A DNA stretch of 64,000 nt from Mesaphorura yosii (lineage: Eukaryota; Arthropoda; Collembola; Poduromorpha; Tullbergiidae), in NCBI GenBank assembly GCA_009869945.1, contig WIXG01000221.1:62001-126000 (forward strand), read 5' to 3'. Below, in pieces: positions 1 to 49,475 of the stretch (its first letter is position 1; each line of letters starts with the position of its first letter). A model generated the notes under the pieces. That model made no database searches and had not been told where the DNA came from. It worked only from the letters and a program-made list of their open reading frames with translations. The position numbers and the translations under genes were made by a program.

Positions 1-1055
1 ATGTATAATTTTCTGTGAACAAAGCAAACAAGCAAACACGACGACGGCGACGAGATTCGGCTGTTTGTAATCATGATCGAATTACAAAGTCACAAAAATA
101 ACTCGAGATTATTCGCGAGCTGCGAACTGCTGCCAAATATTTCGCTGCTACTTTATCGGCTCGGCAGAGACAGGAAGCGAGTCTGTTTTCTGTTTCGTGC
201 CAAAATCAAATGCCAAACTGTCTGCCACGCCACGCCATCCCAATCTTCATCAATCTCGTCCGTCTCCAATCTGACCATGGAACGAGCCAATAAATTCGTA
301 ATTCGTTGCTGTTTCACGTTGCTCTGCTCATTCTTGGTTCGCAAATTCTTGTTAGCCGCTGGCAAAAAATGGCTGTGTTTAATTTGTGACTCCCATTTAA
401 GAGCTGTATTAATTACAAATACAAATTACTGTTCTCAAGCACTCAAGTCCAAGTACGCGAACGCGTGTTTGTCCAACGCAGCATGCATGCTAATTAGTCA
501 CGCGAGGCAAAAATCGAGTTTGGGTGACTTTGCATCTTCTACGATGTAATCGAATCTCAGGCAGGCCAGGCCACTCAAAAGAATTCTCGTAATTTGTAGG
601 TGAATGAATAGGAGCATGTCAGCCAGAAAAAAGACACTCGAAATTGCAATTACAAATTACAAAAGACTGATTTGCGTTTGAGTGACAGTTCCGTCCAGCT
701 GCTGGCTGGCAAATTTTTTCCACAGAACTCGAGAGTTCGCACATTCGCAAGCCGCGTATCGCCAAAACATTTTGCAACGCAAATTGGGAATTTGAAAAGA
801 CTTGCAAAGATTGCCGATTGGTGACCTTGTCCCCCTGTTTTTCGTCTTCTTGTAACTTGTCTCGCAGTCGCGTCGTCCATCACCTTTTGATTTATGCTGT
901 AGTAAAATTTATAATTAACTTTTACACGCCACGTCTTCGCGTCTCGCACCTGTCCGTCGTTAATGAAGTGCAGGTCAAAAATGGAATGTGAATTAAATTG
1001 AAATTGAACTTCGTATGCAAACATGTGTCGTCTGTACTGTTTTTATGCGTTTTAG
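1..1055. other. Intron or upstream noncoding DNA of aquaporin 1
   Basis: No reading frame here looks like protein. The stretch ends in a TTTTAG acceptor directly before an aquaporin exon, so it is most likely the intron between the exon coding TM2 and the exon carrying the first half-helix. It is rich in short words such as TTGCAAA and ATTCGCA, like the rest of the noncoding DNA up to about 19 kb. Confidence 0.6.
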
Positions 1056-1907
1056 GCAATTGGACACGTCAGCGGAGGACACATTAACCCAGGTAAGGCT
1101 GGAGGCTGCGCTCCTGCGTCCTGCGTGCCACCTTCAAGGAAATCTTGACTGACCGTTTTCCTTGCTTTGCATTTGCAGCGGTGACTGTCGGAATTCTGTT
1201 CTCGGGCCAGCTGAGCATCCTCCGAGCGTTCTTCTACATCCTTGTTCAGATTGCTGGCGGTATTCTCGGCGCTTATGGAGTGAAGGTAAATAGGAACCCG
1301 CCTTCTTTAATGTGTGTACTCCTTTCAGCTCTCCGGGAATTTAATTGCACATTTTGCTTTCATTTCGCGTCCGCAGTTGGCCGCAGCTTTCGACCCAAAC
1401 AACGGTCTGGGTGCGAACTCCCTTCAGGCAGGCGTCACCGTCGGCGGAGGATTCCTGGTGGAGTTTGTAGTGACCTTCTTGCTGGTTCTCACCGTCTTTG
1501 GCTGCTGTGATCCCAAACGTAACGATGTCAAGGGCTCCGTACCGCTAGCGATTGGGTTGGCTGTCGGAGTGGCGCATTTGCTCTCTGTAAGCGTGCCAGC
1601 GTATAAATCAGCTACCGAATTATCTCAAATACAATGACATGATTGCAGATCGGGTACACCGGGGCCGGACTTAACCCCGCTCGATCACTGGGACCAATGG
1701 CCATCAACCCGGACCATTTTCACAGCCAAGCATGGGTAAGGAGATCCTTGTATTCACTTTTCGTCACTTTTCTTGAAAACTAGATTTGCTCAAGCCCATA
1801 TGTGTACATTTCAGATATACTTCGTCGCCCCGCTGGCTGGAGGAGCAGTTGCAGGCCTCCTGTACACGTTCTTGTTCAGGGCTCGTGGAGAATCGGCTGA
1901 CCTCTAA
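1056..1907 (+). CDS. Aquaporin 1, 3' exons (5' end lies before the window)
   Basis: Exons at 1056-1092, 1179-1285, 1377-1586, 1649-1735 and 1815-1907 join in frame to 177 codons ending in TAA. Every junction is GT-AG. The protein is the C-terminal two thirds of a MIP-family water channel. GHVSGGHINPA is the first NPA half-helix and GLNPARS the second. The His of the aromatic/arginine filter is seen in VAHLL, and the filter Arg follows the second NPA. TM3 to TM6 are visible as hydrophobic blocks. The first intron splits the NPA motif itself, between the Pro and Ala codons. The tail is short and ends RGESADL. The filter residues match water-selective insect aquaporins such as the Drip/Prip group, and this assignment is inference. 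The N-terminus, TM1 and TM2 are outside the window or in an unseen upstream exon. Confidence 0.93.
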
Positions 1908-2194
1908 ATTCTAAATCCACCTTTAATTTCATCTTCTCTCAATTTCTATTCAGCCTTGCAAGAATTTTCATTATCTTATCATTTTGCCTGTGTATTGACC
2001 TAAATGAAATTAATTCACATTATTGTTCTTATCTGCTACGTACTATACTACGCCACGTGTGTTATCATTGTCGTTATATGTTTGTTCTTCAATTTACAAA
2101 TGCATTGTGCCACACTATTATTACAAGATGTTCATGCATAAAACATGGAGCATTTGAAGTTAATTGACGATTTGATTCTGTTTGATTGTTAGTT

Positions 2195-2200
2195 AATAAA
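2195..2200 (+). promoter_or_regulatory. Poly(A) signal of aquaporin 1
   Basis: AATAAA lies about 290 bases after the aquaporin 1 stop codon, in AT-rich DNA with no competing gene on this strand. Confidence 0.55.
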
Positions 2201-2536
2201 ATCTGCTTGTGTTCAGTTTTAATGTTTTAAGAGATCCACCTTGAACCACAATTTATAAATAGCCAGTGACGTCATATCTGTGACAGGCTAGGTTTAACAT
2301 GTGAATCCTCATGCTCTAGTCTAATACATTACAATTTCTCCCTAACTCTAACCTTACCTGACGACTGATGATGCACCCTATTATCCGCTTTCAAATAATC
2401 AAACTTGCCTGCAGTGCAATCAGATTAATCAGATTTTAATTCCGGAATCACTAAGCTATAACATGTGAAAAATAAGCAATATTATAGTTGGGTATAATAA
2501 CCTGCCCGTCGAATGGCAGGTCGGTCTTGCTCAATC

Positions 2537-3305
2537 TCAATACACGCAGCAATAACAGGTGCCCCCATACCATTGAGGATACTCGAATTTGTTACCCAGC
2601 GGCTTGTTACGGCACGCCGTTTCCCGTCTTCTTTCATCGTTGTGCCAGCATCCAGCCGGACCATCATACTTGCTGCAGGAAAACAAGTTGTCGAGTTTAT
2701 CGACACCCTGTCGAAAAACATCTTCCGGAATTACTGAGGTGAGAACGTAACCTTCCTTTTTCTTTGTGGCATTTTCAACTAACCAAAACGCATTTTTAAA
2801 TAGGGGAGTGATTAATTAATCGTATTTATTAACTGGGTGTTAAACTTACTGAGAGGAATCGTTCCATCAGGGTATCTTACATAAAGTTCCAATTGTTGAG
2901 CCGCTGATTTCAACCAGGTTGCAATTACTTCCAGCTTGGCTTTATTTGCAGGTGTGGCAGGGATGGCAATATCATAAACCCATATACCTTCATTATATAC
3001 TTGATTGCCATTGCTCCAGGAACCTTGAGCTTCCGATCGTGTGAAACCGCCAAATTCTTGGTGAAGTTTTGTTTCAAATTCGGATTGAACAGCTGATAAG
3101 GATGTGCCGTCATTTGTTGTCTTTGGTAGGATAATTCGGGCTTCTGTTGAGTTAAAATGCTAACCATTAGTTACTTGGGATGCCTCAATTTAATTAAGAA
3201 CCGTGAAATTAAGGACTCACCTCCAACCTGCCTTCGGGGCCTAGAACTTGAGCAAATGCTGATGGAGAAGAGAGCCACGAAGACAAATGAAGACCACGCG
3301 CTCAT
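2537..3305 (-). CDS. Small secreted protein with cysteine-rich C-terminal exon
   Basis: Three exons read on the minus strand, 3305-3221, 3143-2850 and 2733-2537, join in frame to 191 aa. Donors are GTGAGT and GTAAGT; acceptors are CAACAG and CCTCAG. The start was taken at the Met opening a clear signal peptide (MSAWSSFVFVALFSISICSS). An upstream in-frame Met at 3353 would bury it. Exon 2 codes an about 98-residue globular segment with the motifs FGGFTR and IWVYDIAI. Exon 3 adds a tail with six cysteines that ends in TCYCCVY. The protein is probably exported from the cell. I do not recognise the family, and no catalytic residue is evident. Each exon lies in an open frame without stops, which supports a working gene. 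Confidence 0.7.
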
Positions 3306-4795
3306 GACTTCTGGAAACGGCAAATGGCTGGAATTGTTTTTCAATAAATTCACTGACGGGCACTAGCGTTGATAACCCAGAGTCTTGGATTTGCTTACCG
3401 TGAGCCACCGCGAGCTCAAAAGAGACTAAAAGGAAAGCTTGCACGGTGCTGAAACAACCTTCATGCTGCTAAGGACGAGCAGCTTGACATTGTACGGCAT
3501 GGCGCATAACAAAAACCAGTTTTTTATTCCAGGAATTCGCGTCACACCATTAATGAGTTCTCTTACATAATAATGACTGCGTGAAGATTTTTGTCAAGTG
3601 GATACGAGGTTCAAAATTCTGTGAACTTGCAGTTAGTATAGTTAGTGACCACGTATACCCCCAGCGTTTAAATTTTCAGCGTTTAGAAAGAATAATGTCG
3701 AATTTCATTCACTTGTGTCCAGTTTAAAGTATCCCGCCATTGGTAGGATGTGTCATTCAATTTACGGTGAACTTCGAAATGGTCTCCTTTATCTTCATTT
3801 GTTGATGCTTCAAATACCCCTCAATTTTGTAACTGAAGTCCCATTCACGAAAGCTAAGCGTTCACTTGGTGACCTCTACAGTATTTAAGGCCAAATCTGC
3901 GTAGCAAACTACCATGGATCGATCAGAAAATTCTCTCGCAAATTCCCGTACGGTTTTTATAATCATCCGTCAAACCCGCGCATAATGACTTTGGCTGACG
4001 GAGTTCCTCGCGACATTTGGGCCCAATATAACACACTGGGAAGGTAAACTGTCACGCGAGTCCCGGATGAGAAAAATAATGCGTGCATTCCATCTGAAAA
4101 ACCAGCCAAATTAACCCTTGTTAAACGATACTGTTACATATCAAACCTTTTTTTGGAAGCAGTTGAATTAACAATTAATACATCTTACTTGGAGGGTCGG
4201 CTCGTTAAGGGCTGCCTTTCCAGTGGCTGAGAACAGCACGGCATGGCGGGAATCACGCTTGCGTCGAACGTTATCTGAGCATACTTTTCCTTTTGCCATA
4301 ACCAGGCACGGCGCGGCAGGGGTTTAACGCTAACACATTCAAGACAAGAATTGTAGGGTCACCGCAACAGTACGTTGTTGGCTGATCACGTCTGTTTCTG
4401 ACACGTCCGATGCCCCGCACGGTCAGTCGATGGATCCGGCAGAAAAATGTTTGCTAACATCTCCGTTGCCCCGCATCACACGGTACGACATGAACGTACC
4501 ATGCACCGGTGCATTTAATTCGATTACTATTCCTGCAGACTAAGCCTAGAATCTACACTATGCACATGGCGAACGAATTTCAACAATCTAGGCATTTCTA
4601 CATGAACAAATATGCTTCAGAATTGCCCACTTCACAAAAACGAATGCTCGTCACCGGCTTGCATCAACCCAACCACCAAGTCGATGACTTCTTGGCCTTT
4701 CATAAGACCTTGTCTGTACAATTGACACGACCACGGCATCGTCAATATCCACACAGGAGCTTAGCTCAAACAAATATACCGTACATATTTTGACG
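3306..4795. other. Gene-free stretch
   Basis: I see no convincing exon on either strand. A 94-codon ORF at 4509-4793 has no protein-like composition and no splice partner. Short GC-rich phrases built around GCACGG/GGCACG recur between 4230 and 4500 but do not form a regular repeat. Confidence 0.5.
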
Positions 4796-23508: not shown

Positions 23509-23866
23509 AAGTTCAGGGTGCGCGGGATTTGAGGACGGCGCTGCCGTTCCGTTCCGTTCGAGGTCAACCCAACCTCGTATCGCTTTTCATATCGGCCACG
23601 GTCATTACCACTGACCCCGTATTTTGGAGGCATACAAGAGCTGCAAGGCCAACGGCACCCGACGACATTCGGCCATTTCAACGCTCTCGAACGCCGAACA
23701 AAGTCGAGAGGAACTCATCACCGCATTCCTTGTTCAAAACTCGCAAATATATAAATCCCATTCAAAGCTGTCATGTGCTTGCAAAATCGTCGGCGAATCT
23801 CCTCCACGTCAACCTCACTTGTTGAAAAGACCTAATCAAGACTGGTCCGCTGTGCGTGTTGACATC

Positions 23867-25356
23867 ATGGTCTCCGCTTACAATAAATTCTTTCCGAGAT
23901 ACAAAATTGTATCAGTACTACAAAATAAAACTTCCAAAGTGTACGTGATCAAAGACAGATGGGGAAAGAAATTTGTGCTCAAGATCAAACCGGCACCTCC
24001 GACCACTGGACAACCCGATGTGATTCCAGCGTTTGGACAACATGTAGAACTACGGGAGTATAACAATCTCAAAGCTGTCCGGGATGCAGACGGTGCGCCC
24101 ACGAAGCACCTGCTGGAAGTCGTCGCATGGAAAAAACTTCAGCGTAGACGCAACAGTTTCTGTGAATTACCGAAGGACTGCAACCAAGGGCTCCCCAACG
24201 CCATTGCGATTGTGTTTGAACTTTGTGACCAAGATTTGGCTTCTAAAATCTAAGAAACAGAAGAGGGGCTGACCCTAGACAATAAGCTTGCAATTGCTGA
24301 TCAGATGATATCGACTTTGGCATACTTGCATGGGCAGAACGTGCTACATTGCGACTTCAAACCACAGAACGTCTTCCTGAAAAAGAGAACCACGAACGAG
24401 GTTATCAAGTGGATCGCAATTATAGGTACTGAGTTGGAAATCATTCTCGAACTTTACCATACTTGTTTATAATTATTCCATGTGCATTAACAGGAGATTT
24501 TGGGGAATCGATTGCCTGTACCACCGTAAGCACAACAAGAACCCACACGGCGATTGGCACCAACTTGTACATGGCTCCAGAGATCCAGAGAGCTAATTAT
24601 GGAAAAGCCAAGTACAGCGCTAGAGCAGAATCCTACAGCCTGGGACTGACCTTGGTCGAGCTTTTTCACAAATTCAAGCCGCTAAGAAACGTAAAATCTT
24701 CTCAGGCTCAGGAAGAGACGTCGGCTGGTGAACAAGCTTGCAGAGAATTCCACGAGTGGGACTTTGCCGACTGGAAGAAAGACCTTGACCGACGCACCGG
24801 ACGTGACGCATGGGAGCAATGTTTCCAAAGTCTGCGTGACCTTCCAGAAGAAATTAAACTCTTTGCATGGGCTTTAACCCTGAGCTCCACCGACTATCGA
24901 TATGACGTCACTGAAATTGCCCGCATTATGCAAGGTCAAGGTCAAGAACGATATTCGGAGAACATCGAGGTTACAACTTTTCAAGAAGTGTATTTCAAGT
25001 TGATCGACTACGAACAAAATATTGCAGGGATTAACGACGAATTGACATTGTGCGACGAAAACGTTAATCAAATCGGGTGATATTGGGATGGCAAGTACAG
25101 ACTCTCTGAATTTATAAACCTCGTTCAAGCTGTAATCTCGTACTGGAGAGCAACTGCGAAGTTACTTGCTGAACTGGAGGAGCTCCGACCTGAATCAGAT
25201 AACACTTGCGCTAATAAGAAAATTACACTAGCGGTGGACAAGTTGCTGGATAAATGCTGGAAAGCGTGGCGACTAGCTCAAAGAGTCCATAGTCAGGCAG
25301 GGACTGTTTTGGATAGGTGGCCATTGCAAATCAATATTAATTCTGCAAATTCTTAA
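23867..25356 (+). pseudogene. Protein kinase with two in-frame stops
   Basis: A eukaryotic protein-kinase fold is readable from MVSAYNKFF at 23867. FVLKIK carries the ATP-binding Lys, VLHCDFKPQNVFL is the catalytic loop (HCD instead of HRD), GDFGES is the metal-binding loop and LYMAPE is the activation-segment end. One intron runs from the donor after 24426 to a CAG acceptor just before GDFG. The frame is broken by TAA at 24251-24253, directly before the alpha-E region, and by TGA at 25078-25080. It then stays open to TAA at 25354-25356. After the kinase domain about 150 residues of helical, charged sequence follow. All key loops remain, so loss of function, if real, is recent. Readthrough is the alternative. 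Confidence 0.7.
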
Positions 25357-26690: not shown

Positions 26691-26917
26691 AAATCAAGGA
26701 GTATATGGAAGGATTGGGAGCGGAGACGGCGGACCTTGAAGATTTCTATGCAGGAGCAGTGTGCAACAAGAGGTGTAGGCAACAGTCTGGAGCTGTCGTG
26801 TCGAGTTGAGTGTCATGATTTTGCCAAAATAAATTAGTAAATATTCCTCAAATTGAATATTAGGGAATTTATTTCTGAAAGGTGACAACAACAATCGAGG
26901 TAATCATTTTGAACTGT

Positions 26918-29900
26918 TCAGATGAGTCTCATCTTTCGAAGGACAGGAAGCCCGGCCTCCTCTGCTCTCCCTCGCAAATGCTCAGAGGCTGCGTCCAGAA
27001 CAAAGACGGCACTGGTGCCATGGAGACCGACCCCAGCCTTGCTGGTGTGTTGGAAGAAGTGGACGGAGTGTCCAAACACCTCGAACACCTGCCCCACTGT
27101 CTGTCCACAGTTGGCCAGGATGGTGGAGACGGGGATGTGGTGGAAGATGTTGTTGCGCAGCTTCCCAAAGTCCCTTCTCTGCATCTCCCTCCGGATGTCG
27201 GCCTCTGGGGAGAAGGACTCTTTCCAGTTGCGCATGAACCATCCGTCCTCCCCTCCCTCCACTCCACTCGCCATGGTTCGGTTGAGCTGCATCTGTTTGT
27301 CCTTGAAGAGCGAGTCGAGTCCTTGTCCGAGGAGTCTATGTGTCAGTTCCTTGGCTGCGGGCTCAATGAGTTCCCGTTGGAGGTTGAGCACCGAGTCCTC
27401 CAGCAGCTTCTCCTCCAGGTCCACGATGTAGTCCTTCACGAACTTTGAGTAAACTTCTGATGCGCTCTTTCGTTCATCGATGCCGTACCTGTCACTGGTC
27501 TTCGCCTTCAGCTTGTCGGCCTCCCTCTCGAAGTGTATGGTGAGAGATTCCACTTGTTGCACCGCAAAGTCAAAGATGGACGTGAGTTTGGCTCTTGTGA
27601 GAATGGACGAGAGGCCGAGGACTTGGAGCGCGGCATGGAAGCCCTTGACCACCCATCCGTAGCGCCCGCAGTATCTGGTCACCTTGTCTGTCAGTTTGGT
27701 GAGAATGTAACGAGCGAGAGTGCTGAGCACTCGCTGGAGAGCGTGGAGGTAGGCACTCGCCTCCCCATGCATCCACTGGAAGGACATTGCAATCTTGTTC
27801 TCTGCCTGCCCTTCCGCGTAACTCGCCTCGTGCAGTTTGTCGAGAGCTGCCTCGAGTTCAGTTATGGCCACCTTGAATTTCGTGGAAAGGAAGGCGCCCT
27901 TGAGCAGTACTCGGAAGTTGGTGAGAACGTAGTTGCGAGCAGAGTCGAGGAGCGTCTCGATGCCCATGTTGGCAAATGTCGTAGCGAGACCCTCCAACGC
28001 ATAGCGCCCTGCCGTCCAGAGCGTCTTCTTAACGATCTCCTCGAGGATCTCCATCCCGACTCGTGCTCCAACAGTGGCTCCAGTAGCACCCGCAAGACCC
28101 CCTGTGCCCACGGAGAAGGCGACGCTGATGATTTTGTGGAGAGCGTACTGCTTCCACGAGAAGGAGCCGCTGAGTCCGCTCTGCACTGCAAACAGAATGT
28201 CGCCCCCGCCCTCCGAAATGAGGATTGCAGACAGATTGGCGGCGGCGCCAGCTGTAATCACCGCCAGTGCGATTCCTGCAGCGATCTGGAGGACGCCAAA
28301 TATGGCAACGTACATTGCCCCATTGGAGTACCATGGAATCTTTCTTCGAACTCGAGGGATCCGTTCAAAGTCTGCCATGTAGAGGTCGACCAGTTCCTCG
28401 AGGTTGGAGGTGGGGAGCTGGACACCCTTTTCACCCGCGCTGTAAGTCTTGTCGATGGTGTCGTAGTCACGGGTCACCTGCAGACGGTCGAGAGTTTTGA
28501 CGGTCCCCACGGATCGAACGAGGCCTTTCCGCAACGCCTTCAAGTATTTACCAAAGTCAGACTCCGACTCGATGGTGTGGTACTTTTTGAATACTGCGCG
28601 AATGGCGGTGCAGAGGCGGTGCTCCTCTCCTCCGAACAGAGAGTCGATGTCATTCAAGACTCCCTCCACCGTACCTGCCATGTGCTCCTTGACCTCCAGA
28701 CTCAACTCCGCAATGCGCTCCTTCGACAATAACTTGTTCTTGAGGCATTTCTTGATGGCAGCCACTCGACTGCTTTCCGCGTCGAGACGCGCGTGAAGTG
28801 GCCAGTAGACCGCCACAGGCTTCAGAATGCCGTCTTTCATAAGCTGCCCCAAGATGAGCTTCTTGCCGTCCCCCTTGTATGGCGTCAGTCCGGTGAGGTC
28901 GGTTGTGCGAAGTTCTTTCTGGGGCAGACCGAGCTGAGCTCCCGACACCGGGTCACGCGCGATGATCATAAGACCCAGCAAGTGCGCGCAGGGAGCGAGC
29001 GAAGGAGGGAGTCCCTTCAGAAGAAACCGCTTCCCACCATCGACCTCATCCACCTTCAACTCGTCATAATGTTGGTCTTTGATTTTGGCGATGTAATCGA
29101 CCTGATGGAGAAGAATTCCCTTGTCCTTTAGCAGTTCTTCGACCTTCTCCCAGTCGCCAGCAATGGCCGGTCGCTGGAAGGGAGTGGCAGTGTAGGATTG
29201 GAAGTTGAGACGGGCCAGGAGGCGACCAATGAGGATCTTGTCCGTGTGACTGATGCCAGTGACGGAGCGGAATGCGTCCTCGTCGTAGTTGACAACCCAC
29301 GACTCAACCTCCTCCTCGTTCTCCACAAACTCTGCCTTCGTGAGGAGGCTCCAGAGTTGTTCTTTGGTGAGGAGTACTTGCTCAAAGTCCGATTCCTGCA
29401 GATACCTCTTGTTGACGTCCCTTCGTAGGACCTTCTGAAGTTTATTGCTCATGGCGTGCTTATCGCACCTGGCGTAGCATGCTGGAACCACTGCCACGGC
29501 AGCCGACGTGAGGCCCTCTTCATCTCCCCGACTCTTGTCGAGCTGTGCACGGATGGTCGCCTCCAGCCCTTCGGCGTACTCGCTCAGAGCGTATGTCCAC
29601 TCCAACTCCTTCTCTCCAAACATGAGGCGGTTGTCTGATGCTCGGAGCCACAGTTTTCTGCTGAGGCGCATGGGTTTGAGAAGACGTTGGTAGCCAGTCT
29701 CTTCTTTGACTGCCCTCACGTCCGCCTCGAGGATGGCGGCGAGCATCGCCTCTGCCTCTTCCCTGTCCTTGTCCACTCCAGGAAGCGAAGCGAAGAAGTG
29801 CTCGTCCACCTCTGTCCCAAGCAAGTCATCGAGAACGCGGAGGTGGCGTTCGTAGAGGTCACACTCGTTCTTGAACTGGACCTCGAGCAGGACGTCCTTC

Positions 29901-32900
29901 CCGCTTGCCTTCGCCCCCTCTTCGCCGTCCGTCTTTTTGAGCTTGAACTGGCTGATGTCCACGTCTCGTTTCATGTCTTCCAGGTTGTTTATGTTTCTTT
30001 GAATGGCTCGTCTGGCAGCCTTGAGGTGGTGGCGTGCGAGCCATCTCGTTCCAAAGCTCTTCTGCTCTCCGTCGAGTTTGAGGAGACAGACACCGAGGTA
30101 GTAGTGGGCGATCTCGTTGTAGTAGGGCTCCACCTCGATGGCCTTGAGGAGAACCTGCACAGCCTCCGCCACCGTGCCGTCCTCCTCGTACGCACGCGCC
30201 AGCTTGACGTAGTCTGCTGCGGCGCGGCAGAGTCCCCACTGCTGCGCTGCCTTGCCCTCCACGTCCTTCCAAAAAAGGTCAAACTTTGTTTCGAGGAGTT
30301 TCTCCCCCTCTTCTGATTCTCCCTTCTGATTGTTTCTCTTCAGATGGACAGATTGGACGAAAACTTGAACACTGTCCAGCCAGAAGGCCCACTCGTTCTT
30401 GACCAAGTCTCCGTACACTTTGGTCACCCCTTTGCTGTACTTTCCCGAAAGCCCTTTGACCCCTTTGTCTGATATCAGTGCGTTGTATGCGGACGTGAAC
30501 CGTGCAAAGAGTTTCTCCTCCACCTTGATCCCTGGTAGTTGCACCGTCTCCACTCCGCTGATCCTCGTCGTCTCCAGTTGAGCGGTGGCTCGTTGGTAGG
30601 CGGTGATGGAGTGTTCCTTCATGCCGCTCAGCTCCTTGACGATGTACTCCGTGCTCCCGGGAGCTCCAGCACGGGAGGTTCTTCCGAAGGCCTGTTTCTC
30701 CACTCGCTCATTTGGGGGCACGGTTGCGAGAATGACATGAAGTCCGCCACACTCTTCGTCAATGGGGAGGTCGGTGCCCCGCCCTGCAAGGTTGGTGCTG
30801 ATGATCACGTCTCCACCAGTGCACGGATTTTGCTTCGTGAATGTGTCCTCGAAGTCTTTGGCTTGTGAGCTGCTCGTGTACGCGAAGGGGGGTCTCTCGC
30901 GTCCCTGCATGAATGGAGACGTCTGCAGGTGCCGCTGCACTGCCTGCGCGTCCTTGACGTTGCTGCAGATGATGAGGATCGGTTGGCTCTCCATCTTACT
31001 CTCCACAGAGGATGCAATGGCGGTCAGGTAAGTCTCCTCGTCCGGAGCAATGGTGCCTGGGTACTTGATGCACCGTTTGAACTTGTAGCGTGGCATTTTG
31101 AAAAAGTCGACGTCGTAGACAGAATGGAGGAGCTGGCGTGACTTGTGGCAGCCGAGGGTGCCCGTGAGTCCAAACATGCGGAAGCTGGTTGACTTGCTGC
31201 TGAAGTGTTTGAAGTAGCCCATGTTGGAGACGAAGATGGCCTTGAGGCTCTCCGCGCTCAGCTTCTTGCCGTACTTGAGTTGGAGGAACTGGTGGAGGCC
31301 GTAGGAGTACTGCGAGTTGCTCTGCTCAACGCCCGTCGGCAAGTCGACCACCGTGACTTTGGTGGAGACCACAAACTGGTCGTCTTTGGCCATCTGCTTT
31401 GCGTCGAACGCATAATTCACCCAGATCGGCAGTCGGTCCAGAATAAACTGACGGAGGAAGAGGGAGTAGGGCACCTTGCCCTCTCGAACCTTCTCGGTCA
31501 TATCCCTCAGCACCCTGCCTGCCCCCTCCTTTCCCTCTGGGCTCCTCTTGACTCCATTCCAGATGTCGATGAATATTCGTTTGAGGTGTCTGAGTTCTGG
31601 GATGGAGTGCGAGATGTAGAGCACATGGGAGCCTTTGTCCAATAGCATCGAGTCCACTTCGTCTACAATCATAAAGTTGGTCACTCGGCCATTCTTGGCG
31701 TACGTCTTGCCGAGATTCTTGTTGCGGAGGAAGTCCGTCTGGAGCGAGCCGATGTCCGAGTAGATGATCTGCGCCCCGTACCGTTTCCGCAGCTCCTCCT
31801 CGGAGTCTCCCGAACCCCGTTTGCAATTGTCGTCGCAGATGTTGCTCATCTGCACTCCAAAGAGGGCGTAGAGTGGCGCCACATCTTTTGCGCTATCAAC
31901 TGCGAGGATGGGCGAGGAGGAGATGATGTTGCCGTTGAAGCCGCCGAGGGCGAGGTGGATGGCGAGGAGTGCAGTGATGACGGTCTTTCCTTCTGAGGTG
32001 GCAATTTCTCCGAATCTGCCCCTAGTGTCCCCGCCCCCTGCCCAGCTGTCGAGGAAGAGGAGGACTGTGAGCACCTGCGTGTCTCTCGGCGGGTAGCCAC
32101 GCAAAAGCTGCATCCCTTGTCGGATGACCGCCAACAGCTCCGTCTTGTGTACCTTGCACACATTCACTTCTCTCCTGAGTTGGGTCACTGCCTCCACCCA
32201 TTCTCTCACCTCCTCCAGTTTCCAGTAACCAATGGGTTTTCCTGTGGTCTTCAGAATCTGAGATTCTCGCATCGCATTTTTGATCGATCTCAATTCAGTC
32301 ACGACCTCTGCGGCCCGGCCTTGATCCCAACCCCGACAAATGTCAGCGTTGAGGCCGAGATCGCGGAAAGCTTCTACAAGTTGCTTGCCCCCGAGGTCCT
32401 TGAGCTTCTTCATTTCATCCGTCATCTGACGCTGAATGTCGCGCGGATCCCTGCCCAGCCTCCGAACGATGTCTGCAGCGAGGATCCAGTCTCCGTTCCT
32501 GATTTTGCTCAAGTGCGCCGCGAGTGACTCGGGCTCCTCCCTGAGGACGATGTCTATGAAGGGCTCGGTCGAGGTCCGGAACTTTTTCTCGACAGCCAGG
32601 CAGAGCTCAAGGGTGGTTGGTTGCCACACTCCTTTCCTCTTGTAGACGCATACGCGAAGTCCTTCGTCCCAGGCTGCCACACTCAACCCCTTCAGCTCCT
32701 CCACCGTCAACCTATCAAACTCTTTCTGTTCGCACAAATCTTGAAGGGTTCGCTGGAGGAGGGGCCATTCTAGTGGAGCACCTCTCTCGCTCAGTTTGCC
32801 GAGTAGGCACTCCATGAAGGTCTCCACGCAACCGGCATCTGCGGGCTGAAGAAAGTCCTCCAGCTGTGTGAGTGTCTGTTTGATACCCTCACTTCTCTCC

Positions 32901-35900
32901 TCCATCACCTTGCTGAAGGGGTACAGGGCTCTCAGTTGTTCCCTGAGGAGGAGATGGAGGACAGCACGAGGCCAGTCCGCTGCGGTGTTGGTCTGGAGGA
33001 CGTGGGTGAGGGCGGTCAAGTCCTCCGTCTTTGAGGCGTGGAGCAAGACGGAGTGGAGCTGAGCGAAGGAGATGGGGCACACTCGACACACCTCAACGAT
33101 GGTCCCCACCAGCTCTGTCCATTTCTGCACGAGTTCGCCGTCTGCTTCCGTTTCCTTGTCCAAGAGGTAGACTACAGCCTGCCAATCGGTCATGGCGCTT
33201 GCTAACTTGTCCTCAACTGCCGGGCACGAGACCAATTCCAAATTGGAAAGCTGAGCCTTCACGTAGTGTCCAGGCAGAACTCCACGGTTCCATTCGGAGG
33301 GTCGCTCTTCTCGAAGCTCCTGCAGAGGGACCTGGAGTTGCTTCCCTGGACCCAGAGCCTTGGATGCGTCCTCCAGGTACCTTCGTTCTTGAGTAGTGAG
33401 CAAATGAGTTGCCAGGACTGGGGTTTCCAAAGCGAGACTGTGTAGAGCGTCTTTCAAGGGTTGCAGGGACGGTTGAATGGTCTGGTGCTGGAGGAGAGTG
33501 GACTCGAGCCGAGAGTAATTCTTGCCCTGAGTGTACTCAGCCCGCGCCTCTTCGCTCACGGCGAGTGTCGAGTGGAGTCTGAGCACCAGCTCTCTGCTTC
33601 CCTGGTCCAGTTCCGGTTTGAAGTAGAGTCTCCCTAGTACACTTTTCAGTTTGTCAAGTTTGTCTTCCTTAATTGGTGGGAAGAGTGGATCCGAGGTGTA
33701 GATGACCTCCCAGAGAGCCGCCCTGAACTCCTTCTCGTCTCCTTTCTCTTTGTTGGCAGGAAGGCGGTCAAAGAGTATGTTGTGCAGGGAGGCCCAGCCT
33801 TTCCTTAGTTCCTGGAGGTTGTGTTGGGGCTTCTGGAGGAGCTGAAGGAATCCTGACCGGAGACAGCGCACCATCCCCACGATCTTTTTCGGTGCGTTGA
33901 TTTGAGTTAGGCAGTTGAGGGTGTATGCGGTGAACACGCCCAGAGACTCATCCCCTGCCATGCGCTGGAAGAAGGCGTAGAGCCAACGTGGGTCGTCCTC
34001 CCGTCCTTCGTCGCCTCCCGACGCGACGTTCAATTGACTGTTGCCAACGCGGATCCATGCGCCCAGTTCCAGCTGCATCAGATCCTCCACTCGCTTCACA
34101 TTGATCGCTTGGGAGCGAATGACGTCCTCCCGCAGCTCCGCCACGTACTTGGCTCTGAGCTCGGAGAGAGTCGCTTTGGCGCGTAAAGAGGAGACGTGAG
34201 TGCATTGCTCCAGCTCAAAGAGACGTTGACCTGTCCAGCTCCGGAACTCTTGCAGCACGGCCTCGACTCTCATCCCTTGCTTTTGCAAGTCGGACTGGAG
34301 GAAGGAGACCAATTGAGGCAGGTCGCTAGAGATGACAAAGAGTGTGAGGTCACAAAAGTTGCGGACCATTTTCGACGAAGGCGGGTTTGGGTACTTTGGT
34401 ATGCGCAGATTCTTGAGAGCACCTTCACAGTTTTCTTTATCGAGCACTGAGCTGATGGGACACTCGAACTGAGAGAGGACGTCCGAAGAGAAGTTGGCGA
34501 GGAGGAGGAGGGTCAAGTCACGAAGGAGAGACGTCTGGTCCCCACCCTTGTACTCCTTCACGAGGTTGATGTAGTTCCGAAGAACTGTCGGCCTCTCTAT
34601 CAGCGTCTGGACAAGTTTGCTCAGCTTCTCATCCCTCTCCAACTCATCACACCAGCGGCTCATTCTGTCCGACGTGCATTGAGCGAAGCTCTTGAGGTGA
34701 AGGTCCAGCACGCCGGTGATCTTGCATACCAACTGAGCGGGTGAACTCCAGCCTTCCAGGTCGCGAAGAGCCGTGCTGGTGGTCTGCATTCGGTTCACGT
34801 GTCCGTGTTCGAGGCAGAGAGCCGCAAGGAGCTCGAGTTTGAGTGAGAGGAACTGCGTCACCGACTCCGGGTCCACAATCTTCTGGTCCGTGGACAACAG
34901 CTCAATGTAGGAGTGAATGGCACGGCCCGCCTCCGCCTTGTCGGCGAGGAGGTGCTCCATATCGTATCCTTCAGCCACCGTGTCAGATATTGATCCCACA
35001 CAAGTGGACCACGCAATGCTGAAGAGAGTGCAAGCGTCTGCCGTTGCTTCCCTCAACAGCGCGTCATTCTGAAGGCGCGTGTCTTTGCTCACCACTTCCA
35101 TGAGTCCCTCGAACTTGGTCTCCACCTTGCGCAATTCGTCGGCGGAGAAGCTCTCAAACTTGAGGACGAAGCCAATGGCGCGTACCTGAGAAGCCCAGAC
35201 ACTCGCGTCTCTCGAGCTCTTGGACAGACGTTCGATAGCGTCGGGCAAGAGGTGGCGGCGTCGGTCTCCGCTCAGTTCCTCCTTCTTGGCCACAGAGTCG
35301 CCGAGAAGTGTCCGGAGAATCTTTGCGCACACCTCCACGTACACTTCCTCCGTGCGCCTCTTCAGCGCGTACGCATCTTTGCGAAGAAGTGCTGCAGTGT
35401 CTCTGTACAAACGGATCTTTTCTTCAAAGTCCAGTCCCGCTTCCGGTGCCTCCACGAGCGCCACAAAGTCCTCCGTGAGCTGGTTGTTACCTTCGGTGTG
35501 GTCGAGGAGAGTGTGGATGCTCTCCAGGAGTGAACTCTTAAACTTGTTGTCGTAAATGTCTTTGAGGATCTGGAGAGTCCACTCTTGACTGTGCTTCGGC
35601 TGTTGTAGGGCTGCCGTCTGTAGCTGAGCCAACTGCCCTTCATCCCCCACCAAGTAATGGAGCAGAAATTTGTACAAGCTCGTCGTCTCGCTTTTGCCTC
35701 GAAGTGCTTTCAGAATGTCGCTGAGTTGTGTCTTGGTCACATCCGCCAGGACGAAGACGAGGACGTCGTCCCTCTCCATGTGTTTGGTGGCCAGGTCCAC
35801 GCAGACCGACAGCTTCAACTTCTTCTCCGAGTGTTCCTGGCAGAGCTGTCGGAAGACGGGCAGCAACTCGTCACTGACCTTAGTCACCCACGACGCCAAC

Positions 35901-38900
35901 TGCTCCTCACTCAGCTTGCCGGCTCCGACGTCGCCTGTTAGCACTCCTTTCGCTTCCTTGGCGACAGCCTTTGCTTTCGCGAGCAGACCCTCGTCGCCAT
36001 TCGTGAGACGATCCTTCATGAGTTCGAGGAGCTGCCACTCGAGTGCATCGAAGAGCGTACCACGCATCTCCTTGTTGTACCGATACGGAGCCTTGAGCAG
36101 AGCCTCCTCAAAATGTTCCAAGATTGACTTGTCGAGGCGCACTGCATGGAAGCGGAGGATCAGGATGTGGAGGCTCGACTCCTTCTCCCAGGCCTTGTAA
36201 TTGTCTTTAGGCAGCAGCTCATTCCAGCGGATGTCTCCATTCGCCTCCTTGTGCACCACTGCAGCCACCGCCGCCAGCTTTCTCAAGATGGCCACCAGCT
36301 GTGGCCCAGGAAGGGGTGGAGTGGTATGGAGGAGACTGTCGAGGATGTCCAGGGCATCCGAAGGGATGCGTCCTCTGAAGTGGGCGAGAAGTTGCTGGAC
36401 GCAAGTGCCAATAGCGCGAGTCAAAGGAGCAAAAGCTGAAGTCTGGCGGAGAATGGCTTGGATCCGAGAGTTGAGGGTCGCGTTGTTGCTGGAGCAGACG
36501 AGGCGGTCCTTCCACATCTTCCAATCCTCGACTCCGCTCTCGTCCTCCTCACTCACCGACTCCTCCAAAGCAGTCAGGGACAAGGCCTTTGTTGCTGGGT
36601 TGTCGACAGTCACGTTGACCGACTCGCTTTCTCGGAGTTGTGACTCCATGCGTTGCGCGAGATCAGCGTCCATTCGGTTTGACATCGCCTCCTCAAGCTC
36701 TTGAAACTTTTGCAGGTTAGTCGACAGCTCCTCCCGTTCTGCCTTCGCACGCTCCTCCTCCTCTTCAGCCCCTGCAAGGTCTCCCTGCACACTCCCCAGC
36801 AGGGACTCTGTCCTTCGCTTGCTGGCCAAGAGCCCTGCCTCCGTCTCCGCCCTCAGACCCGCCTTCATGGCGGCCAGGTCGTGCCCGCCCTCTTTCGTCT
36901 CCTTCTTGCCCGCGTTGGTTCGTGCTCTGAGGGCATCGCGCACTTGCTTCGCATTGATCGACTTGTTCTTGGCGGCGACACTCTGCGTCTGTTGCTGTGC
37001 TGCGCTCTGCGCCTGTTCCCGCCTCCCTCTTTGACCCTTTTCGGAGCGTCCCTTGGGACTCATTGTTTTGATGGTGTAGCCCTTGTGTACCCATCCGTCG
37101 TAATAGACAGCCTCCAGAAAACCTTCGCTCTTGACCCACGGGTATGTCCAGAAGGCGCTCTCTTTGGACCAGGCCCTGTCCTTCCCATGGGCCCCTCCAT
37201 CTCCGCCCTCGCCCTCCTTGCCAGGAGCACCTGTCTTGCCACAAGTCCCGTCCTTCGACTACAAGCGAAAAAGACAACATCATGGGTTTTAGAATTGATT
37301 GAGACGCACGTTCGAGAAGTGCCGAGGCGAGACAAATGGCTCACCTTCAGATTGGGCAGTTGCTCGTGCTGCCTGGTTGCCAACTGTGGCTGTTTCTCGA
37401 CTAGTGTTTCCCCGGCAGAGACGATCTGGATGACACCTCCCGCACCTGCACAGCCTCCGACACCAGGAACTCCTGCATCGCCCCCATTCTGACCCAACTC
37501 CCCAGGTTTCCCATCTTTGAACTGAAGTCTGACACCAGAAGCGGTCGGTGGCTCTGTTGTGATTTCCCCATAATCGCCATCCTTCCCATTCTTGCCATCC
37601 GATCCGTCACCCCCATCTTGTCCATCGGTCCCGTTGCCCCCGTTGGCAGTGATGTATAGCAGGGCCTGGTTACCCTGAATAGGCTTCAGGGATTCGATGC
37701 GCACATGTCCCGCAGACTGCCCATTCCCTCCATTCTGTCCTTTCTCGCCATTGATGCCCGTCCCGCTGCGTTTGGGGGGTTTGGGTGGAGTAGGTTCGCC
37801 ATGTCGTCCGCTGGTGTCGATGCAGAGTGGTTCCCCTGCATGGGCAGGCTCAATTTTAACCACGTCGCCCAGGATGGAGAGGTTTCTTCCCTGCGCGACC
37901 TTGTTCTTGACGCCCACGTCCAGCCAGACGGTTCCCGACGCCAAGATGCAGATCTCGTCGACTTCGTAGGCTTCGTTCAAGTAGTTGCGGAGCTGGACGA
38001 GGGCCTGACTCAGGCGGATGTGGGTTCCGGCACAGGTGAGCAGCCGACTCTCTTCGTTGTACGTGGTTTCAGAGATGGAAAGCTGCTCCAGAATCTTCTC
38101 CAGTTCCCGTAGGTCTTCCCCCACCTTTTTTCTGCCTTCATGACTTGTCAATCTGTCTTGGAGGCCAGGAAACTCGTGTTCTTGCATGTCGAATGCGGTG
38201 AGGAGTCGTTGGTAGAGGCTGGGCAGTTGCGTGTCCTTGTCCAGGGGCACATGGATGGAGCTCAGTTGGCTATTGGGCGTGTCCTGAAGCAGTCTGCTCT
38301 TGAAGTGGTTCCAGCTCTGCTCCTGGTAGAGCGCCTTTAGTTTTTTATATTTGGGGTCGTCCTTGATGACGTGATAGTCGAGTTGGCCATCGTCGGAATC
38401 CCGCAGCTTCTTTGTCTCTACCGTCTGTAAACCGCAATGGCAAGCATTAGAATTTAGAAACACCTTGTTGAGATTCGTATTTGGTAGTTTTGGGTTTGGT
38501 GTGACTCACGAGTTGTTGCTGGATGAGTTCCGCGTGTCTTTGGAGTTCCTCTCTGGCCTCCTGTTGGTCGTTTCCACGAATGACTGCCTGCTCTTGCATC
38601 TCGAGATTGTACATCTTTACGGCGGAGCAGAGTGCGCAACAGATTTGCTTCTTGAGTGCATGGAGTGTGTTTTCACGCTCTTCGGGGCTCCATCGCTGCT
38701 GGCCCCCTTCCATCTGCGCCAGAATCTGGAGTGGGTACAGGTTCGAGATTATGCTGGTCCGAGGCAGTGCCTTCACCACCTGTGCCACGCTTCCACACGA
38801 GGCGATCTCCTCCAGCACATCCTGCGCCTTCCGGTACAGCTTGGCCCAGTCGACGCCCATGGCGATGAAGAGGTTGAGCCAGTTCTCAAAGCAGCTGGAA

Positions 38901-39668
38901 AGGAGTCCGAACTGGTCCAAGTCCGTCACCAGGTCCTGCGCGTACAGACTCCAGTCGCCTGCATACAGCTGTAATCTTGGGATGACGGGGGCATAGACGC
39001 CGTCAGAGTCTCTGTACAGCAGCAGCGTCCCACTTGCGAGCGACTCCGTCAGGCAGAGAAGGAGCTCCTCCTTGCTCATCTGGGTGGCCTCTTGCAGGAT
39101 TACCACGGCGCCAGGCAGAGTGAAGAACTCCCGAATGAGGTCCACGATCTGTTGGAAGTTGTCCGTCTGGAATACAACCGAAAGTAGCTTTTGGAGGAAG
39201 TCTGTCTGCCACACAGCTCCTTTCCCTCTGGCATGGTCGTTGTCGCAGAGTTGGTCCCACTCGAGTGAGGAGGAGGCGAAGCAGATGTCGTCCAGCTTGA
39301 CTCTGGCTCGGTAATTCTTGGCCAGGTGCTGGAGGAGGGAGATGAGCAGTGAAGGACCTGCCAGCTCGTCGCCGCTCTCTCCGATTGTCCACTCCAGCTC
39401 ATGCAGGCGGAGGTAGAGTTCCTCCTTTGGGTCGAGGGACTTCTTCCCCCGTTGGCGGCGCTGGTTGAAAATCCCCATCATGCGTTCGAGGGAGAAGAAG
39501 GCCTGATGCGCAGAACCATTCCGAATACCCACGCGCAGTTTCCGCCAGTTGCTGGTAACTCGCCTCTTGACTTCCAACCTCTTGGCGACATCATCTGCAA
39601 ACAACATCTCGTTGAAGTGTGCATCAACCGTACATCGTACTCAACTCACCTTCACTCTCGGCAGCCAT
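26918..39668 (-). CDS. Giant SecA-like motor protein, 4,174 aa
   Basis: Minus-strand exons 39668-39650, 39594-38510, 38424-37345 and 37258-26918 join in frame (19+1085+1080+10341 bases), all GT-AG. Residues about 589-695 and 729-755 are glycine-rich with collagen-like NGG/DGG/GKPG steps. The motor lies at about 2420-3010. Its ATP loop is IATSEGKT (Lys about 2486), Walker B is DEVD (2594-2597), then come LAGRGTD (2887-2891) and FGRTSRAGAPGS, all in the order and wording of bacterial and plastid SecA. A TPR-like stretch follows (AVQVLLKAIEVEP, about 3100). Near 3706-3800 are hydrophobic Ala/Gly-rich helices. The rest is mostly charged helical sequence. SecA in bacteria drives preprotein export with SecYEG. 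No SecYEG partner is seen here and the role in an animal cell is unknown. Introns and a 10.3-kb open exon show a nuclear, maintained gene. Confidence 0.9.
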
Positions 39669-40493: not shown

Positions 40494-41272
40494 GGCACAT
40501 TGGTACGGGACCGTGATTCATTGGGCGGCATGCATTTTTGCATTGGCAAGCACGTCAACCGTAAACTTTGACCAGCTGCCACGAACCGCCAGATCAACGT
40601 AGGTAGGTGAGGTTTGCAGTTCTGAACAGCCCAGGTTCTAAGCTTTCCAAAAACATGTAATTTGGGTGGGATCATAATAGAACCCTTTACCACCCAAATG
40701 GCGCTACCCCAAGTTTGGGGTTGGGGATTTTGGAGCAAATGGATTGTCAATTAATTACAATTACCAATTGTAATTGTAGTTAAAGTTTATTTTCTAATTC
40801 AAGTCCATTACGAAACTCGAGTTTAAGCTAATGGAGAAAACCGTACAAAAACCTCCATAATTTCCCGAGGATCTGGGACTTTAAAAAATTTTAGAGTTAA
40901 ATTAATTGGTAACTTTAGGATAAACTTTCTCTAGTCTCCTTCAAAAGCGCAGTCTGGGGTTTGGAACACTGGTAGCAATGATTAGTACCTGCTTGCTCCC
41001 AAAAATCTGCCTGCGGTCTCTGCAGAAGCCCACAGAAACGGAACCCCCAACTTGGGGTAGCGCCATTGGGGGGTAAAGGGTTCTATTATGATCCCACCCA
41101 AATGACATGTTTATGGAAAGCTTAGACCCTGGGCTGTTCAGAACTGCAAACCTCATCTTCCTACGTTGATCTGGCGGTCCGTGGCAGCTGGTCAAAGTTT
41201 ACGGTTGACGTGCTTGCCAATGCAAAAATGCATGCCGCCCAATGAATCACGGTCCCATACCAATGTGGCGCG
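40494..41272. repeat. Foldback element with about 230-bp inverted arms
   Basis: Bases 40494-40725 and 41042-41272 are inverted copies of each other, aligned by eye over about 230 bases with few differences. Both contain the phrases CATTGGGCGGCATGCATTTT and GGGTGGGATCATAATAGAAC. The centre is about 316 bases of AT-rich DNA with no coding capacity. This is the form of a non-autonomous DNA transposon of the foldback or long-TIR MITE kind. No clear target duplication was found at the ends. Confidence 0.8.
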
Positions 41273-43874: not shown

Positions 43875-45336
43875 CAGGGTCGTTAAGAACCTTTGCCGCC
43901 CTATCTATATTCTACACTATGTACAATTTTGGCGAGTGAGGAGTCGATTCTTGCATAAAATCTTCTTCTGAATCCAAAGAAACCAACGCCGGGACGATCT
44001 GGCCGGAAATAAAAAAGTTATGAGTATTTTAAGTGGCAAAAGTGAGAAAGGCTGGGGTTTCACCTGGTTTAGTAGTCGGTATTGCCACCATTTGCTCTTC
44101 TGACAGCTTCCAACCGCTCAGGAAAAGATTTCAGAAGCTTCTCGAATAACTGGGCGTCACTTTTCATTTCATCCAAGATTTCCTGGAGAATTTCCATGAG
44201 GTCATTTTCGTTTGCATCGTTCCGAGGAAATCGTATGACCAACTCCTTCTCCACTCGATCTTTAAGAATTGCTCCAAGATTTTCAGTGGGATTCAGGTCT
44301 GGCGAGTTTCCGGGCCACTGGCTGTTGTCGAAGAAGTCAATTTCATTGTTTCGCAAAAGTTCTTGAGTCTGAAATGCTTTCATGCACGGAGCTCTGTCAT
44401 GGAGAAAGGTAACCTGTTCTGGGTCCAAAACGTTCGCAGGATCACGGATGAACGGAATGACGTTAGTTGCCAAAATTTCTCTGAAATATTCACCATTCCA
44501 GCGCTGGCCGTATGGCTTCAAAACGAATGTCAAAGCTTTAGCGGAGAAGCAAAGGAAAATGCCAATGCATTTCGGCCGAGCTTCCAATTCGTTCATTGTC
44601 TTCAATAGCATCAATTGTCCCAGCCCAACTGCGATCGTTCTGAAAGTTGGGTTTTCTTTTAAGGTAAATGAAGAACTCATCACTTGCAACCACATGCAGG
44701 AAATCATTCTCATCCCAATTCTTGAGATAATTCACAAACCAAAGTCGGTCCTTCCGATTTTGTTCAGTTTTTTTCGGTTTTCGGATTTCATGAAATGGCC
44801 GAAGTCCAGACTTCTTGCGAAAATTGCGAACTGTGCTGGTGGCCACACTCTTTTGTCTTTTTGTTAAAATTTCGGCTGCTAATCCAGCATTGCTCTTCCG
44901 ACGTTTGCCAGAAGACTCCAAAATAATTTGTTTGCTTTCTTCACTCATGACGTCTGGACGTCCTTCGCCAAACCGCGTCTTGACTTCCTCGTAAGTTTTG
45001 GTCGAATTTCTGGTCACCCAGCTCTCTGAACGCTTCAATTCTTGTGCTACCCACTTTTTTGTGACGAAGTCACAACCACAATCCTTCACTCTCTTGAATG
45101 CAATTGCCTTAATGCGGTCAAAAACTCGATTTTCTTCAGTATCACCAGCGAGTCCAGCCATTTTTGGCACTTCTTCACTTAAGATGCTGATAACTTTTTT
45201 ATTTTTAGTCAGACTGGAATGTGGGTGGTTTCGTTCGATCCAGGACAAGATTTACTATAAGAATCATCTTTTGCCTTACAAAAAATGCTCAAGTTTTGGC
45301 CGGTAAAAAGGGCGGCAAAGGTTCTCAACGACCCTG
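43875..45336 (-). mobile_element. Complete Tc1/mariner-type element with broken transposase
   Basis: Terminal inverted repeats begin CAGGGTCGTTAAGAACCTTT on the left and end with the near-perfect complement on the right (about 28 bases, one mismatch). A TA flanks each end, as expected for the Tc1 superfamily target duplication. The transposase reads on the minus strand. It has an N-terminal helix-turn-helix region (WVAQELKRSESWVTR), then ASDEFFIY with the first Asp, FLHDRAPC with the second and SPDLNPTEN with the Glu. I count 37 residues between the second Asp and the Glu. The frame shifts near 44600, so this copy is probably inactive. Length is 1,462 bp. Confidence 0.92.
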
Positions 45337-48740: not shown

Positions 48741-48819
48741 TTAGAGACTCTTAGACACAGGACAAACATCCGGTGTCCCTAATTTATCTCTACCTACTTG
48801 ACGCACCATGATAAGGCCA

Positions 48820-49437
48820 GGACAGGGACAGAGACAAAGGACAGGACACGGTTTGTGTGTCCTTCTTTTTTGTGTCTGTCCTCATCTCTCTTCGGGCAAG
48901 GACAGGACAGGGACAAAGACAAAGGACAGGACACGGTTTGTGTGTCCTTTTTTGTGTCTGTCCTCATCCCTCTTCGGGCAAGGACAGGACAGGGACAAAG
49001 ACAAAGGACAGGACACGGTTTGTGTGTCCTTCTTTTTTGTGTCTGTCCTCATCCCTGTGCGGGCAAGGCCAGGACAAGGACAGAGGCAAAGGACAGGACA
49101 CGAGACGAGTGTTCCAGAGCCTCTTGTCTGTCCTGATCCTTGTCCGGACAAGGACAAGACAGGGACAAAGACAAGGGACAGGAAACAGTTTGGGTGTCCT
49201 TCTTTTTTGTGTCTGTCCTGATCCCTGTCCGGACAAGGACAGGACAGGGGCCGAGACAAAGGACAGGACACGAGACGAGTGCTCCAGAAGCTCTTGTCTG
49301 TACTGGTCCCTGCCCGGACAAGGACAGGACAGAAACAAAGACAAAGGCCAGGAGACGGTTTGGGTGTCCTTCTTTTTCGTGTCTGCGCTGATCCCTGTCT
49401 GGACAAGGGACAGGACATGAGAATCTCTTGTCTGGGC
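48820..49437 (+). repeat. About 85-bp minisatellite, seven units
   Basis: Units begin GGGACAAAGACAAAGGACAG and include TTTTTTGTGTCTGTCCT and GGGCAAGGACAGG. Unit starts near 48825, 48910, 48992, 49078, 49161, 49247 and 49332 give lengths of about 82-87. Two unit subtypes occur: one with GGTTTGTGTGTCCTTC, the other with GAGACGAGTGTTCCAG. Because stops are absent, long ORFs exist in several frames on both strands; these are artefacts of the repeat. Confidence 0.9.
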
Positions 49438-49475
49438 TGATCTTGCAATCATTTTAGTAAAATATGTAACCTAAG

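Follow-up and report, generated by a model that had tools for sequence, protein, structure and literature searches.

A gene for a giant protein with a SecA-type motor

The minus strand of the window, by which we mean the whole 64,000-nucleotide stretch of Mesaphorura yosii DNA analysed here, carries a gene (39668-26918) for a giant protein that contains a SecA-type motor. We tentatively read this gene as a resident, selected member of an old and mobile family of SecA-motor giants that are built like polymorphic effectors and bring their own translocation engine. Four exons join in frame into exactly 4,174 residues, as the preliminary description of this DNA had claimed, and all three introns (55, 85 and 86 bp) have GT...AG ends. 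Together with the profile matches, these exon joins also support the earlier view of the product as a giant multidomain protein from a spliced gene. A chance origin is unlikely, because the last exon is open over 3,446 codons and a paralogue of nearly full length is found on contig C837 of the same genome. The parts of the gene and its product are as follows.

39650..39668, minus strand: exon 1, the first 19 bases of the coding sequence, start codon included
38510..39594, minus strand: exon 2, ends at residue 368; the C837 paralogue exon is 33% identical
37345..38424, minus strand: exon 3, residues 369-728; the C837 paralogue exon is 49-51% identical
26918..37258, minus strand: exon 4, residues 729-4174 and the stop
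26868..26873, minus strand: AATAAA polyadenylation-like signal, beginning at 26873, just beyond the stop
37489..38091, minus strand: N-module, glycine-rich, residues 480-680
30233..32155, minus strand: SecA-type motor, about residues 2430-3070, with NBD1, preprotein-binding region, NBD2 and part of the helical scaffold
31982..31996, minus strand: Walker A, SEGKT, residues 2483-2487
31652..31663, minus strand: Walker B, DEVD, residues 2594-2597
30098..30211, minus strand: TPR-like helical stretch after the motor, residues 3078-3115, with sub-threshold matches to TPR_14 (14.6 bits) and TPR_8 (13.9 bits)
27863..28525, minus strand: C-module, about residues 3640-3860, signature LISEGxxDI...GxFSWxxYxxxK
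26921..27862, minus strand: C-terminal tip, residues 3861-4174, no Pfam match

SecA is the export motor of bacteria and plastids. The motor of the window protein is intact and of the SecA type. Its motifs SEGKT, DEVD, AGRGTD and GRTSRAG follow each other along the translated sequence in the order of SecA, as had been noticed before. Across 38 aligned sequences the E, G and K of Walker A and the preceding T are invariant, as are the D, E and second D of Walker B; S2483 occupies a position that is G in most relatives. Pfam reported SecA_DEAD (82.4 bits, cut-off 24.6), P-loop_SecA (27.8 bits, cut-off 27) and Helicase_C (24.4 bits, cut-off 23.5). Of the two SecA profiles that the preliminary description had named, SecA_DEAD was thus found far above threshold, whereas the preprotein cross-linking domain, SecA_PP_bind, reached 18.6 bits and stayed under its cut-off of 23.5. 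The latter exceeds the cut-off in the relatives P0001, P0004, P0121 and P0186 and falls below it in P0012 and P0053, and the corresponding region lies inside the fold match of the modelled motor.

Pfam SecA_SW, the wing and scaffold profile, was not reported at E <= 1 in the window protein and was found in none of the 23 giants that we scanned over their whole length, whereas L100, a standard SecA that served as control, scored 199 bits. When the precomputed domains of the 240 listed relatives were inspected by eye, none included this profile (PF07516). The modelled motor has the SecA fold, and the match extends into the scaffold region, to SecA residue 776. About 128 SecA residues are left unmatched in this alignment, a number near to the size of the helical wing domain.

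Paralogues in the same genome

When the genome (93.0 Mb, 1,127 contigs) was searched, SecA_DEAD was found at nine places, eight of which, the window's included, lie in open frames of 2,999-4,724 amino acids. The gene is therefore not the lone oddity that it had seemed, since eight further places exist, seven of them in giant frames. The paralogue on C837 can be followed from residue 64 of the window protein to its last residue in three successive frames (33% identity over residues 64-367, 49% over 380-727 and 35% over 727-4174). Its introns 2 and 3 match the positions of those in the window, in phase 0, with splice sites placed by eye; the donors are GTAAGG and GTAATT, and the acceptor of intron 2 is ambiguous between two sites, within 1-2 residues. 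The two genes were compared by the NG86 method, which gave a nonsynonymous divergence (dN) of 0.61 and a saturated synonymous divergence (dS) of 2.84 over the long exon, 0.32 and 2.12 over the motor, and 0.72 and 2.4 over the tip. A dN well below dS agrees with the selection that had been supposed for this gene, and the sequences show signs of purifying selection.

A second lineage of SecA-motor giants is encoded on contigs C546, C593, C762, C804 and C918; its nearest relatives are from Paramacrobiotus, with those of ciliates and intracellular bacteria more distant. Contig C471 carries a partial copy of the giant protein. Searches with three parts of the protein, which ignored introns, found short matches interrupted by stops on contigs C995, C636, C994, C1035, C876 and C928, and others without stops. 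The interrupted relatives are possibly decayed copies, and their presence suggests birth and death of the family within this genome.

Spread of the family and tree of the motor

Giant relatives span arthropods, rotifers, cnidarians, a mollusc, an echinoderm, ciliates, a tardigrade and Wolbachia. The search with the window motor matched 321 giant proteins, of which the best 120 were listed. Among these the nearest is from Folsomia, a springtail (42%); the others come from arthropods (Daphnia, Moina, Anopheles, bees, flies, Apolygus, Chilo and Artemia), rotifers, Clytia, Mytilus, Amphiura, a ciliate and Wolbachia, and no tardigrade is among the best 120. The search with a paralogue of the second lineage, lineage B, gave 259 matches among 7,992 candidates scored, and the best 120 include Paramacrobiotus, ostracods, Hyalella, Bradysia, rotifers, Tetrahymena, Paramecium and Hydra. 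The N-module is present in 83 of the 120 relatives listed for the window motor and in 0 of the 120 listed for the lineage-B paralogue. The best named relatives of the C918 protein, among the matches listed, are three Paramacrobiotus metropolitanus proteins (51-52%).

In the genome collection 229 stretches encode relatives, and 21 of the best 80 have both motor and C-module, if L049 is counted in spite of its weak C-module score. The bacteria with both parts are Rickettsia, Orientia, other Rickettsiales, Legionellales including Legionella, Parachlamydiales, Bandiella, Arcanobacter, Cytophagales, other Bacteroidetes and broadly placed proteobacterial bins. Most of these groups are intracellular in, or otherwise associated with, eukaryotes. 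The giant build was thus not invented in the Mesaphorura lineage, as motor and C-module are common to the relatives in Rickettsia, Orientia, Legionella and Parachlamydiales. The window protein also matches the Wolbachia protein P0053 beyond the motor (residues 496-663, 2250-3239 and 3679-3834); judged by size alone, P0053 is the orthologue of wBol1_1092.

A motor tree of 52 sequences (631 columns, LG+G4, 1,000 ultrafast bootstraps) was rooted on standard SecA. It set the giants apart from bacterial SecA with a support of 100, and within them lineage A (99), which contains the window protein, and lineage B (95). A FastTree of 166 sequences placed the window protein in the same way (lineage A 0.993). 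Lineage A comprises the proteins of the window, C837 and C67, Folsomia, Pseudolycoriella and other insects, Daphnia, rotifers, Stylonychia, Clytia, Mytilus, Amphiura, Wolbachia and two bacterial bins. Lineage B comprises many intracellular bacteria and a eukaryote group (support 100) with five Mesaphorura yosii paralogues, Paramacrobiotus, Bradysia, ciliates, Hydra, rotifers, an ostracod and an amphipod; two of the three Paramacrobiotus proteins group with C918 (100). Two lineages of SecA-motor giants therefore coexist in the Mesaphorura yosii genome. The rooted tree fits a bacterial origin of the motor; the preliminary description had proposed a bacterial or protist source for the gene. The branches do not follow the relationships of the species, which is most simply explained by horizontal movement in one direction or the other.

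Some other SecA_DEAD proteins branch just outside the giant clade. L063, a planctomycete protein of 650 amino acids without SecA_SW, does so together with one other. L064 from an Elusimicrobia bin has 4,433 amino acids, and a search for the C-module in it found none.

C-terminal tips often vary among closely similar giants

Motor and C-module are conserved across the family. Proteins that are alike in these parts often have different C-terminal tips. To describe this we used 248 proteins (240 retrieved, seven paralogues and the window protein), of which 195 have a C-module followed by at least 350 residues and entered the pairs; 24 of the 53 dropped proteins lack a C-module and 29 have shorter tails. 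When motors are 80-90% identical, all 88 pairs are similar over the C-module and over the 150 residues that follow it; similarity is also found over the 150 residues before the motor in 73 of 73 pairs and over those 600-750 before it in 67 of 73. The last 150 residues, in contrast, are similar in just 37 of the 88. At 60-70% motor identity the C-module is still similar in 244/244 pairs, the next 150 residues in 242/244, the two regions before the motor in 168/182 and 131/182, and the last 150 residues in 58/244; at 40-50% the last value falls to 28/1652. A second measure sorted the 88 pairs at 80-90% into 38 in which both proteins finish with at least 80 residues unrelated to the partner, 26 whose similarity reaches both ends and 24 with a difference on one side.

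One such case is in Wolbachia, where P0063 and P0064 have motors 99.9% identical over 826 residues. Both proteins are alike up to ...RLPISLGAFGG and then continue into either tip A or tip B. P0062 and P0063 on the one hand and P0053 and P0064 on the other carry two alternative tips on a nearly identical chassis, and this pair depends less on gene-model errors than pairs from eukaryotes. Two named Wolbachia proteins carry an identical tip A, and in three further proteins it is 95-100% identical; tip B is 90-100% alike across four named ones. In insect entries, which may be symbiont DNA, tip A recurs at 52-64% identity in Chilo, Nomia and Halictus, and tip B at 67% in Osmia and 32% in Apolygus. 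The stretch before the junction is, as we take it from its motif, OTU-like; a home-made profile of it matched 39 of the 248 proteins, after the C-module in every one, and the Pfam scan of P0053 reported no OTU. One may speculate that this stretch releases the tip.

Several of the scanned giants have Pfam domains towards the C-terminus: AHH nuclease (P0217, 2209-2297 of 2318), Ntox17 (P0213, 2256-2348 of 2348), T5orf172/MUG113 (P0121, 3864-3956 of 3991), Lipase_3 (P0178, 3933-3970 of 4107), phage lysozyme (P0186, 3755-3888 of 3907), thioesterase (P0054, 4301-4524 of 4537), OTU (P0046, 2976-3052 of 3520) and Endonuclea_NS_2 (P0012, 2767-2841 of 2982). AHH and Ntox17 stem from polymorphic toxins. 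A ninth giant, from a Legionellaceae bin, matches Pertussis_S1 just above the cut-off and a Scabin-like domain below it (residues 2245-2369 of 3274). In a Cytophagales bin OTU lies before the motor, and P0004 has an ILEI domain near its start.

Surroundings of the gene

The contig that carries the window is at least 126 kb long. When ten frames outside the gene were scanned with Pfam, six matched, three of them below cut-off: a kinase, a Tc3-like transposase, an aldo-keto reductase, a helicase, an ion channel and, weakly, LapA. The following were observed beside the gene.

23615-25077: frames that follow the giant gene on its downstream side; one of them, the second (24433-25077), matches Pkinase with 36 bits
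40493-40697 and 41066-41270: arms of a 205-bp inverted repeat, 96% complementary with 368 bp between them; the pair precedes the gene start by about 0.8 kb and looks like a small hairpin-type repeat element
44541-45251: Tc3-type transposase fragment (HTH_Tnp_Tc3_2, below cut-off)
48815-49470: repetitive frames of the type GQDRDRDKGQD..., probably a tandem repeat

What the giant protein may do

The constant order of parts in the family is a SecA-fold ATPase motor, a helical and partly hydrophobic C-module (hydrophobic segment at residues 3708-3743 in the window protein) and, in many relatives, a variable tip. Judging from the fold model and the intact ATPase residues, the motor probably acts on polypeptide, perhaps on its own C-terminus. 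It would keep the polypeptide clamp of SecA and use ATP to thread or remodel unfolded polypeptide, most plausibly the C-terminal part of the protein itself, at or through a membrane that the C-module would engage. Such a protein would work in the manner of a polymorphic effector that brings its own translocation engine, and its role in the host may be conflict with microbes, parasites or rival cells, or that of a domesticated derivative. Toxicity, mechanism, membrane engagement and tip delivery are inferred from sequences and models.

Several observations weigh against this reading. The tail of the window protein has 332 residues, which places it outside the pair statistics, and its tip resembles only that of C837 (29%) among the 248 proteins, so that no exchanged relative is seen. 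Pfam found no toxin domain in this tip (residues 3861-4174), nor any C-terminal domain over cut-off in 14 of the 23 giants, including the window protein, Folsomia P0001 and Wolbachia P0053. Eight of the relatives with tip domains are not a random sample, because they were picked for extras in precomputed domain lists. At 40-50% motor identity, similarity also dwindles in the flank 600-750 residues before the motor (58/1057 pairs). Gene-model errors inflate tip differences in eukaryotes, and P0180 and P0181, with identical motors and different ends, show such errors within the pair statistics. The helical C-module comes from a low-confidence model (predicted TM-score 0.42) without a match in the PDB at E <= 0.001, and the window protein has a single hydrophobic segment over threshold.

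For the window protein itself, domestication is nearly as likely as the effector reading. The lineage may have been fully domesticated after capture, losing the effector role and leaving an intracellular ATPase scaffold, for example in protein remodelling or in a membrane or innate-immune function. This is a serious alternative, if still an unlikely one. Introns 2 and 3 shared with C837, a dN that stays under dS throughout the long exon, tip included, the lack of a Pfam domain in that tip and a start that by eye is not signal-peptide-like all favour it. However, eight giant copies in two lineages together with short fragments, some of them stop-bearing, look like turnover and not like a fixed housekeeping gene, and relatives bear effector-type tips.

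Less probable is a selfish or conflict gene of symbiont origin that moves between symbionts and hosts and is kept because it harms competitors or non-carriers. The mixing of phyla in the motor tree and the fragments with stops would fit, and Bordenstein and Bordenstein 2016 (PMC5062602) count SecA as one domain of the phage WO eukaryotic association module. On the other hand, terminal repeats were not found at the gene edges, and the conserved introns imply long residence in the host genome. We consider it very improbable that the protein is a true export ATPase that acts together with Sec61 of the host or with an organelle SecY: the fold match does enter the scaffold region, but SecA_SW went unreported in all scanned giants, about 128 SecA residues stayed unmatched and the overall build is unlike SecA. 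Contamination or an assembly artefact can practically be dismissed, for although six of the seven other giants lie on contigs of only 16-40 kb, the window gene has spliceosomal introns on a long contig with transposase, kinase and ion-channel-like frames nearby, and C546 has a JHBP-family frame about 6 kb from its lineage-B giant.

We thus retain, tentatively, the selected and effector-like family member. The stronger version, in which animals and ciliates own a polymorphic-effector system with SecA-driven delivery of tips through a membrane and trade of tips between hosts and symbionts, the window tip being an unrecognised one, appears rather doubtful. If the effector-like reading is right, SecA would have a second life as the motor of giant proteins that resemble effectors, in animals and in protists, with the same parts moving between animals and Wolbachia-like bacteria. 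One could then test what the many animal proteins annotated as 'protein translocase subunit SecA' or 'uncharacterized' do, and whether toxin-like effectors whose tips can be exchanged are employed by animals.

Comparison with known systems

The giant secA family is known, and the window gene is a member of it, spread over animals, ciliates and intracellular bacteria. Giant, horizontally transferred eukaryotic secA genes have been on record since Duplouy et al. 2013 (PMC3639933), which in the sections at hand describes them from insects, Daphnia, ciliates, Wolbachia and Amoebophilus. The window gene resembles these in its size class (wBol1_1092 of Wolbachia has 11,829 nt), its SecA domain, the eukaryotic clade apart from bacterial SecA and the horizontal transfer. 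Most annotated introns of such genes were deemed spurious there, whereas the three introns of the window look real and two are common to C837. No description of the C-module or of an exchange of tips was met in those sections, nor did our limited search of the open-licence literature yield one of C-terminal domain exchange on animal SecA giants.

Compared with bacterial SecA (6itc, 1tf5), the motor shares the fold of NBD1, preprotein-binding region, NBD2 and part of the scaffold as well as the ATPase residues. The window protein differs in having no Pfam match to SecA_SW or SEC-C and in a motor that makes up less than a quarter of the chain. SecA_DEAD without SecA_SW is also the pattern of the secondary SecA_DEAD proteins in the part of Kamneva et al. 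2015 (PMC4452313) consulted; those examined here, unlike the giants, have about 650 amino acids and neither C-module nor tip.

A further parallel in build is with polymorphic toxins and endosymbiont effectors, as far as the accessible text of Zhang et al. 2012 (PMC3482391) describes them. They combine a constant chassis with an exchangeable C-terminal domain, a build also seen in relatives of the window protein, whose own tip matches only that of C837. OTU and nuclease tips are common to both, and SecA-like domains are named there among Amoebophilus effectors. No immunity gene is known for the giants, though no search aimed at one was made. Unlike those toxins, the giants are encoded in animal and ciliate genomes and have a SecA motor built in.
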